Source of the DNA: Verrucomicrobiales bacterium
Lineage (GTDB): Bacteria > Verrucomicrobiota > Verrucomicrobiia > Limisphaerales > F1-12-MAGs170
Reading direction: 5' to 3'
Length of the DNA: 34,341 nucleotides
Assembly (NCBI GenBank): GCA_005777315.1
Contig: SXMN01000048.1
Span: 1 to 34,341 of the forward strand
Shown: piece by piece, positions 7,867 through 33,857 of the stretch
How positions within the stretch are numbered: the stretch's first letter is position 1
Layout of the letters: the number at the start of each line of letters is the position of its first letter
Position numbers and translations under genes: made by a program
The notes under the pieces: model-generated
Databases searched by the model: none
What the model was told of the DNA's origin: nothing
Seen by the model: the letters and a program-made list of their open reading frames with translations, nothing else

Positions 7867-8316
7867 ATGGCATATCGTCGTAAGACCTGGCGCGAAAAGC
7901 TCGCCGACGACAAGGGGCTGCCGAAGATCGGCAAGGTTGAGGGCAATATGACCAAGCGCTGGGGCACTGGCACGATGGTCATCCCAGCTCCGCGTGAGGT
8001 GGACGAAATAATCCGCAAGATTCGGAAAGGGAGCACGGCCACCATCAACGATCTGCGTGCTGCGCTCGCGAAAAAGCATGGTGTGGACATCTGCTGTCCG
8101 ATCACCACCGGCATCTTTACCTGGATCGCCGCCTACGCCGCCGAAGAGGATGAGGCCGAAGGCAGGAAGCGCATTACGCCGTGGTGGCGGGTGCTGAAGT
8201 CGGACGGGAAGTTAAACCCGAAGTTTCCAGGTGGCGTCAAAGAACAGTCCCTTCGGCTCGCTGCTGAAGGCGTCATCGTTCCGCAGAGCCCGCCACGAAG
8301 AATCTCAACACGGTGA
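7867..8316 (+). CDS. MGMT-fold alkyltransferase-like protein, PWWR instead of PCHR
   Basis: A small basic protein. Its C-terminal half follows the DNA-binding and active-site region of O6-alkylguanine-DNA alkyltransferases: a helix-turn-helix-like TINDLRAALAKKHG, then TPWWRVLKSDGKLNPKFPGG and LAAEG. In true methyltransferases the loop is PCHRV with the alkyl-accepting Cys; here residues 106-107 are Trp-Trp, giving PWWRV. The known alkyltransferase-like (ATL) proteins also replace the Cys with Trp (PWHR), bind alkylated DNA and hand it to nucleotide excision repair. By analogy this protein may sense damaged or modified DNA without repairing it. It lacks the usual N-terminal domain. Its ATG is four bases after the propeller stop, with GAAG upstream as a possible ribosome site inside that gene's end. 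Confidence 0.72.
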   Translation: MAYRRKTWREKLADDKGLPKIGKVEGNMTKRWGTGTMVIPAPREVDEIIRKIRKGSTATINDLRAALAKKHGVDICCPITTGIFTWIAAYAAEEDEAEGRKRITPWWRVLKSDGKLNPKFPGGVKEQSLRLAAEGVIVPQSPPRRISTR

Positions 8317-32360: not shown

Positions 32361-33032
32361 ATGCGATCGAAGCAAGAAATCATTCAGGCATTGATTGAAC
32401 CCGGGGTTATCGCCGTGGTCAGGGCTCAATCACAGGAACAAGTGCTGCCTTTGAGCCGCGCACTTGTGGCCGGCGGGATCATCGCCGTCGAAGTGACCAT
32501 GACCACGCCTCAAGCCATTGAAGCCATTGCCGAAACCAAACACGCCCTGGGAGATTCCGCGCTCGTCGGCGTAGGCACGATTCTCGATGCCGCCACCTGC
32601 GAACGCACCGTTGCTGCCGGCGCTGAATTCGTCGTCAGCCCGATAACCCGCGCGGAGATCGTCCACGCCGCCCATGCCGCCGACCGACCGGTCATGCTTG
32701 GAGCTTACACACCCACCGAGGCCCAGACAGCGTTCGAGCTGGGCGCGGATTTCATCAAGCTTTTTCCCGCTGATGGACTCGGACCGGCGTACGTCAAAGC
32801 GTTGAGAGCTCCCCTGCCCCACTTGAAAATCGTGCCGACGGGTGGCGTGGACTTGAAAACGGCGGGAGAGTTCATCAAGGCAGGGTGCGTGGCAGTCGGT
32901 GCCGGTTCATCCTTGCTGTCCGCTCAAATTCTGCGAGACGGGAACTGGCCGGAGTTGACGAGACTTGCCTCCGATTTCGTCGCGGCAGTTCGCACGGCAC
33001 GCAAGGAATTGCAGATCGTGGGAGGAAAGTAA
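32361..33032 (+). CDS. eda: KDPG/KHG aldolase
   Basis: A complete 223-residue class I aldolase of the Entner-Doudoroff type, 2-keto-3-deoxy-6-phosphogluconate / 4-hydroxy-2-oxoglutarate aldolase. Motifs are in the expected order: PGVIAVVRA, GGIIAVEVTMTTP (E44), GVGT, Schiff-base K133 in DFIKLFPAD, PTGGV and GAGSSLL. It splits KDPG to pyruvate and glyceraldehyde 3-phosphate. It sits alone, with no 6-phosphogluconate dehydratase or KDG kinase in the window, so it may serve uronate breakdown or amino-acid metabolism. The start ATG at 32361 keeps the full N-terminal helix. Confidence 0.93.
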   Translation: MRSKQEIIQALIEPGVIAVVRAQSQEQVLPLSRALVAGGIIAVEVTMTTPQAIEAIAETKHALGDSALVGVGTILDAATCERTVAAGAEFVVSPITRAEIVHAAHAADRPVMLGAYTPTEAQTAFELGADFIKLFPADGLGPAYVKALRAPLPHLKIVPTGGVDLKTAGEFIKAGCVAVGAGSSLLSAQILRDGNWPELTRLASDFVAAVRTARKELQIVGGK

Positions 33033-33060: not shown

Positions 33061-33235
33061 TACTGAGGAGACCGTGGGATTGGCTACGAATGATGGCGAG
33101 CGCCACAGATGCAGATGCAGATGCGAGGCGCGAACGCGGAGGATGCCCGCAGCGGCCTCTGACCAAGCGAGCAACGAAGCAGATCCGTCTGTGCCGCCGT
33201 CAAGATTTGTAGCCTATCCCACGGTCTCCTCAGTA
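33061..33235. repeat. 175-bp palindromic element with 31-bp inverted arms
   Basis: The first 31 bases (33061-33091) and the reverse complement of the last 31 (33205-33235) agree at 29 positions; mismatches are at the 21st and 28th bases. The weaker inner part also pairs in places (CACAGA on one side, TCTGTG on the other) and holds three copies of AGATGC at ~33107-33124. The whole stretch could fold as one long imperfect hairpin. It lies between the ends of the convergent aldolase and CheW genes and contains no ORF. It may be a MITE-like repeat or a bidirectional terminator. No second copy was seen in the window. Confidence 0.75.
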
Positions 33236-33338: not shown

Positions 33339-33857
33339 TTAGTTCCGCGTGACTGCCTGCTGCACGGATTGAATGGTGTCGGCGGAAATCACGCGGTCGA
33401 TATCCAGCAGTGTTTTCACCGAGCCACGGATCTTGGCCATCCCAAGGATGTAATTCGTATCGAGCATTGCGCCGAAGTCGGGCGCGTCCTCGACATCTGC
33501 GTGCGTGATATTGATCACCTCCTCGACTCCATCCACGATCACTCCCATCTGCGTCTTGACACCAGACGGCAACGCGACCTGAACCACGACGATGCATGTC
33601 CTCGCGGTGGTATCAGCGCTGGCCAGGGCGAATTTCAGGCGTAAATCCACAATTGGAATGATCTTGCCTCGAAGATTGATGACGCCTTTCACGTAGGTCG
33701 GCATTTGCGGGACCGCGGTGAAATCCACCAGACGGATGATCTCGCGGACTCTCAACACTTCGATCCCATAGGACTCGTGCCCCAGGACAAAAGTAAGGTA
33801 CTTGCCTCCCAGGCCCCTTTGAGCGCTGGCGTTAGTTGGAACTGCTTCTGTAATCAT
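33339..33857 (-). CDS. cheW: CheW chemotaxis coupling protein
   Basis: A 172-residue CheW domain: KYLTFVLGHESYGIEVLRVREIIR, VPQMPTYVKGVINLRGKIIPIVDLRLKF, TCIVVVQV, MGVIVDGVEEVI and the closing YILGMAKIRGSVKTLLDIDRV. CheW links chemoreceptors to the CheA kinase. No CheA, receptor or CheY gene is in the window. A short N-terminal tail (MITEAVPTNASAQRG) precedes the domain. It ends facing the palindromic element. Its upstream 429 bp hold no recognised gene. Confidence 0.93.
   Translation of the reverse strand: MITEAVPTNASAQRGLGGKYLTFVLGHESYGIEVLRVREIIRLVDFTAVPQMPTYVKGVINLRGKIIPIVDLRLKFALASADTTARTCIVVVQVALPSGVKTQMGVIVDGVEEVINITHADVEDAPDFGAMLDTNYILGMAKIRGSVKTLLDIDRVISADTIQSVQQAVTRN

Follow-up and report, generated by a model that had tools for sequence, protein, structure and literature searches.

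The 175-bp palindrome at positions 33061 to 33235 of the window, by which we mean the whole 34,341-nucleotide stretch of DNA analyzed here, is very probably a copy of a non-autonomous palindromic MITE of the IS630/Tc1-mariner type. What was unexpected is the tip of its hairpin, a folded segment of about 58 nt that has no Rfam match and is common to MITEs with different ends. Bacterial MITEs are mostly regarded as emptied IS remnants whose interior is irrelevant. Here the interior of about 58 nt is the most conserved part of the element, across different ends and duplications, with arms that change in step.

An earlier note, made from the sequence alone, had described arms of 31 bases pairing at 29 positions, and comparison of 33061 to 33091 with the reverse complement of 33205 to 33235 gave the same count (29/31). 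Its claim that the whole element forms one long hairpin was also confirmed, as all 175 nt fold together at -103 kcal/mol (z = -10.8), while 200 dinucleotide shuffles had a mean of -58.7 (standard deviation, 4.1) and none folded as well. The setting between convergent genes was as it had described, with an aldolase gene on the plus strand and a CheW-like gene on the minus strand. The element proper is best read as the 171 bp from 33063 to 33233, with the outer TA on each side being the duplicated target. The features of the locus are as follows.

32361 to 33032, plus strand: KDPG/KHG aldolase gene, a neighbor outside the element (Pfam PF01081, E = 9e-42)
33061 to 33062, no strand: TA, left copy of the target-site duplication (from TA flanks and two gap-free empty sites)
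33063 to 33233, plus strand: palindromic MITE of 171 bp, most copies being 166 bp (from arm pairing, fold, and comparison of copies)
33063 to 33091, plus strand: left terminal inverted repeat, CTGAGGAGACCGTGGGATTGGCTACGAAT, which pairs with the right end and resembles IS630-family ends of the order
33107 to 33196, plus strand: structured core with inner arms, matched by covariance model R1 (77.1 bits, E = 9e-20)
33108 to 33124, plus strand: GATGCAGATGCAGATGC, with one GATGCA unit more than most copies (from comparison with 166-bp copies)
33123 to 33180, plus strand: conserved hairpin tip, common to elements with other ends (from BLAST matches in other genomes of the order and covariation)
33205 to 33233, minus strand: right terminal inverted repeat, reverse complement CTGAGGAGACCGTGGGATAGGCTACAAAT, which pairs with the left end
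33234 to 33235, no strand: TA, right copy of the target-site duplication (from TA flanks and empty sites)
33339 to 33857, minus strand: CheW-like gene (cheW), a neighbor outside the element (Pfam PF01584, E = 4e-34)

The window copy is 171 bp long rather than 166 bp because of one extra GATGCA unit, the main cause, and a 1-bp loss. A search of relatives for the orthologous locus of this copy found just the separate genes, and its own empty site was not seen.

The home genome (G000) is a Verrucomicrobiota MAG of 5.66 Mb that is 82% complete. A check for further copies returned at least 40 similar copies in this genome, in both orientations, with the true number being uncertain because many copies sit at contig ends. 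Repeats of this kind break assemblies, and many contigs of the MAG end inside a copy. Among the 40 copies that were scored, the full-length ones are about 170 bp, with 88 to 94% identity. With up to 3 mismatches allowed, the end motif CTGAGGAGACCGTGGGAT has 96 forward and 97 reverse matches in the home genome, compared to 3 and 2 for the reversed pattern, and the exact motif is present in named records from Pedosphaera sp. and other Verrucomicrobia MAGs. We read 53 copies, 38 of which measure exactly 166 bp between the TAs, seven measure 36 bp, and one measures 74 bp. The MITE copies have a uniform length of 166 bp and precise ends and carry no transposase gene, and they form two subfamilies whose arms differ while pairing is kept. 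The 36-bp forms look like internally deleted miniatures with the same ends as the main 166-bp form, and they may stem either from such deletion or from transposition of their own. These forms (L039 at C51:712-747, L093, L104 to L107, and L115) are barely more than two ends, and several of them are perfect or near-perfect palindromes. Neither the repeat nor its core is reported in the open-access literature that we searched.

TA flanks on both sides were present in 45 of the 53 copies, a longer shared duplication was present in none, and the bases around the insertion showed a palindromic target preference (ACT-TA-AGT). For 12 copies, we fused the sequences on either side at a single TA and used them to look for empty sites, as the earlier note had proposed, in the home genome and one genome of the same genus (G003). 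Two empty sites were found, both of which aligned without a gap at the junction. The empty site of L004 is orthologous in G003 (178 bp at 77% identity) and has CA where the filled site has TA, while that of L011 is in the home genome, in a repeat whose other copies are without the element, and has GA. These alignments point to a duplication of a 2-bp target, TA, which fits both empty sites. Since the empty sites read CA and GA at this position, one has to suppose a subsequent mutation, and the one-base departure from TA presumably arose on one side or the other.

Complete IS630-family elements in relatives from the same order have the ends TACTGNNNAGTCCGTNGGATAGACTACA, about 1.05 to 1.11 kb apart. 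The element in genome G151 is 1,099 bp, with TACTGATCAGTCCGTTGGATAGACTAC at one end, TACTGATCAGTCCTTAGCATAGACTAC at the other, and a 356-codon frame between them that encodes an IS630-family transposase (NCBIfam NF033545, E = 5e-62; Pfam DDE_3, E = 1e-35). Elsewhere in the order, most relatives of this transposase with 66 to 75% identity also lie between ends of this kind. The MITE ends resemble the IS ends in part, with the best end agreeing at about 22 of 27 bases. We found neither an IS630 element with MITE-type ends nor a G151-type transposase in G000 or G003, both of which are incomplete MAGs. The home genome's own IS630-type (DDE_3) genes, on C151 and C23, were considered as the driver and rejected, since their ends do not match. 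The repeat family combines many copies with precise ends, TA duplication with two empty sites, and ends that match an autonomous IS630-family element in relatives. These features strongly support the earlier note's reading as a non-autonomous mobile repeat, here of the IS630/Tc1-mariner type, and the driver is likely to belong to this IS630 subgroup.

Other IS630-type loci were seen. At L088 (G000:C151), two different DDE_3 transposase frames adjoin, and the second is bounded by inverted repeats that measure about 21 bp and start CTAGTGCTTAGTTGCATAAAT. Two small elements, L083 (G151:C313) and L267 (G034:C137, 1422-1524), have the same IS630-type ends and another interior that is without the core, so IS630-type ends can carry other cargo.

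BLAST matches in relatives were often confined to element positions of about 63 to 120, a segment of about 58 nt at the hairpin tip. An order-wide BLAST search, which was shallow in that two candidates were scored per genome, gave matches in 41 of 293 genomes, a few of which are end motifs and not cores. We aligned 37 cores (alignment A1) and found 22 pairs, 18 of which change on both sides, with 93.3% of cells paired. The covariation score was 0.667, compared to 0.166 for shuffled sequences and at most 0.196 when the partners were slid. Conserved unpaired stretches lie between the helices (GAGGCG-CGA on the 5' side and GAGCAACGAAGC on the 3' side), and by eye, these may form tandem G-A pairs. 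With one mostly wobble pair left out, the stem cells contain 28 G-T and 11 A-C combinations, for which the binomial P value of 0.005 is indicative only because the sequences are related; a second alignment, itself fitted to the model, has 34 and 8. This excess of G-T over A-C suggests that the modeled strand is the one that folds.

Covariance model R1 located the core 109 times in the home genome and, under strict filters, in 31 of the 388 genomes searched from the phylum, with other classes included. The strong matches carry the consensus GGC-AAGGCG-CGA...GAGCAACGC-AGCC, and the weak matches may be ordinary hairpins. A search of Rfam gave no family match in the window and only chance-level matches (E values up to 5) for six core-bearing loci. 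A search of plasmids, phages, and viral contigs gave no credible core match, although the patterns used on viral contigs were narrow and prove little.

Beyond the TA family, the core is carried by elements of 160 to 290 bp that have different ends and duplications of the TNA or CTAG type. Duplications of the TNA type are characteristic of IS5 elements in the IS1031 group. The CTAG duplication is less certain as such because the sequence is self-palindromic. The ends, duplications, and locations are as follows.

GAGCCTGTCTGAAAATT, TAA or TGA duplication: G000 contigs C199, C210, and C83
GGGTCCGTGCAAAAA or GGGTCCGTCAAGAAA, TTA or TAA duplication: G000 contigs C210 and C148
GGAGCCGGTAAGAAATAAAGG, TTA duplication: G000 contigs C91 and C308
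TGTCCCGCGCGGCAAG, CTAG duplication: G611
GAACCTGTTTGGATAA, TAA duplication: G510
GAGACTGTCCAATAA, TCA duplication: G582

Many of the non-TA elements have, in addition, a CGCAACCCGNAGGG-like linker and a second hairpin in which the core is inverted; the TA family is without both. The home genome also has two-hairpin elements of 270 to 290 bp (L212, L213, and L319 to L323) whose two cores face opposite ways, whose terminal repeats are of other kinds, and whose duplications are mostly TNA. The positions of two-hairpin elements in this genome are as follows.

C199:12644-12862
C233:4584-4780
C210:3110-3324 and 8100-8299
C83:28512-28726
C148:779-977
C167:3351-3551

We also considered whether the core is part of IS5-like elements and rejected this, as it was near just 2 of 25 PF01609 loci. 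At one of these (L234) the core belongs to a small element of its own next to the IS, seen at one of seven IS copies, and at the other (L233) it is about 1.2 kb away.

The earlier note had also thought the position suitable for a shared terminator. That the aldolase and cheW genes retain the palindrome as a bidirectional terminator would agree with a highly stable hairpin between convergent genes. This reading nevertheless appears very unlikely from the sequence, as the T-tract expected after the hairpin of an intrinsic terminator is absent on both strands, three other weak terminator-like sites fall outside the hairpin, and the repeat family appears to be mobile. Moreover, the 33 copies whose gene context could be classified (genes were called with a simple codon score; 18 further copies unclassified and one inside a predicted frame) lie mostly between tandem (18) or divergent (9) genes, with only 6 between convergent genes. 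Copies are nearly always intergenic, the orientations of the flanking genes look random, and the core shows no clear bias relative to tandem genes (10 with and 6 against). Such intergenic, unoriented placement is in keeping with a selfish element that inserts outside genes. Even less probable is that the palindrome is a repeat of the REP/REPIN or TIR type, dispersed by a tyrosine (HUH) transposase resembling RAYT. Six Y1_Tnp genes are present in the genome, and RAYT genes flanked by inverted repeats are known (PMC3733652), but only one of the three RAYT-like genes is close to a copy, the other two (L135 and L136) have no repeat nearby, the unit is 166 bp rather than 20 to 40 bp, and neither TA duplication nor IS630-like ends are expected from that mechanism. 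The one copy in question (L134, G000:C112:3903-4518) lies shortly upstream of a RAYT-like Y1 transposase gene with a 329-codon frame, probably by chance.

For the MITE, we propose that an IS630-family transposase supplied in trans would recognize the ends of about 28 bp and move the element into a TA, which would then be duplicated. Pairing of the arms is kept from end to end, and the structured, conserved motif at the tip occurs also in MITEs with unrelated ends. The folded strand, as RNA or single-stranded DNA, would most probably serve the element, for instance by stabilizing it or by aiding the joining or recognition of its ends, and placement between convergent genes would be incidental. 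The copies, their ends, the TA duplication, the matching IS ends in relatives, the covariation, and the presence of one core in elements with different ends are observed; mobilization in trans and the strand and function of the core are inferred.

The core itself could be a structure that the element uses as RNA or single-stranded DNA, an RNA that benefits the host, or a remnant of a shared ancestor whose ends were exchanged. A host-useful non-coding RNA spread incidentally by MITEs would explain the RNA-like covariation, the wobble asymmetry, and the conserved unpaired stretches. We consider it unlikely, given the lack of a preferred orientation to neighboring genes, the patchy distribution over genomes of the phylum, the many near-identical copies, and the absence of an Rfam match. 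Descent of all core elements from one ancestral MITE, with ends that were exchanged or diverged and a core that has no present function, is plausible, if somewhat short of an even chance. Many families share more than the core, namely, the linker and the second hairpin. However, the TA family lacks these, the different kinds of duplication (TA, TNA, and CTAG) suggest different transposases, and common descent alone leaves unexplained why the tip was retained while the arms changed in step. We favor a core whose structure, as RNA or single-stranded DNA, is maintained for the element itself. More tentatively, this hairpin may be a portable module taken up across the phylum by MITEs of at least two to three transposase types because it is advantageous to its carrier; if so, the advantage would be in stability, transposition, or host tolerance. 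The conserved interior makes selected function inside MITEs testable and offers a defined but unclassified structure to probe.

Among the closest known systems is RUP of Streptococcus pneumoniae, a small, intergenic repeat of about 100 copies with IS630-like ends that inserts at TA and whose proposed mover is IS630-Spn1 (PMC2229807). The relation of RUP to IS630-Spn1 matches that of the MITE to the IS630-family elements of its relatives (PMC2229807). RUP has a length of 107 bp and pairs over short ends, whereas nearly all 166 bp of the MITE are paired and its tip is common to other element families. ERIC (127 bp, from enterobacteria) is likewise palindromic and intergenic, with TA ends and a transcript that forms a long stem-loop (PMC2229807), but it differs in host group and size, as far as a comparison by description goes. 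Correia/NEMIS of Neisseria is a TA-ended MITE with a long stem-loop transcript (PMC2229807); the literature covered describes no core module shared across MITE families for it, whereas the core described here crosses families. CIR of Caulobacter and Brucella, with two hairpin arms, a linker, and a conserved GANTC at the hairpin tip (PMC2229807), is reminiscent of our two-hairpin elements. The conserved part of CIR is that GANTC motif, while here it is a structured tip of about 58 nt that recurs in elements whose ends and duplications are of several kinds. REP/REPIN sequences with RAYT are also abundant intergenic palindromes, and the verrucomicrobium O. terrae is known to have GTAG repeats (PMC3733652), but REPs are 20 to 40 bp and RAYT associated, unlike an element with IS630-type ends and TA duplication.

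A second, unrelated short repeat (GTGAACCGGGG...CACGGCTTCGCCGTGATGCAGATGGCCCG) is present in several copies in the home genome (C133:807-927, C218:8029-8112 and 1914-2004, C294:3239-3306, and C53 near 7180), and one copy of it is interrupted by the MITE.
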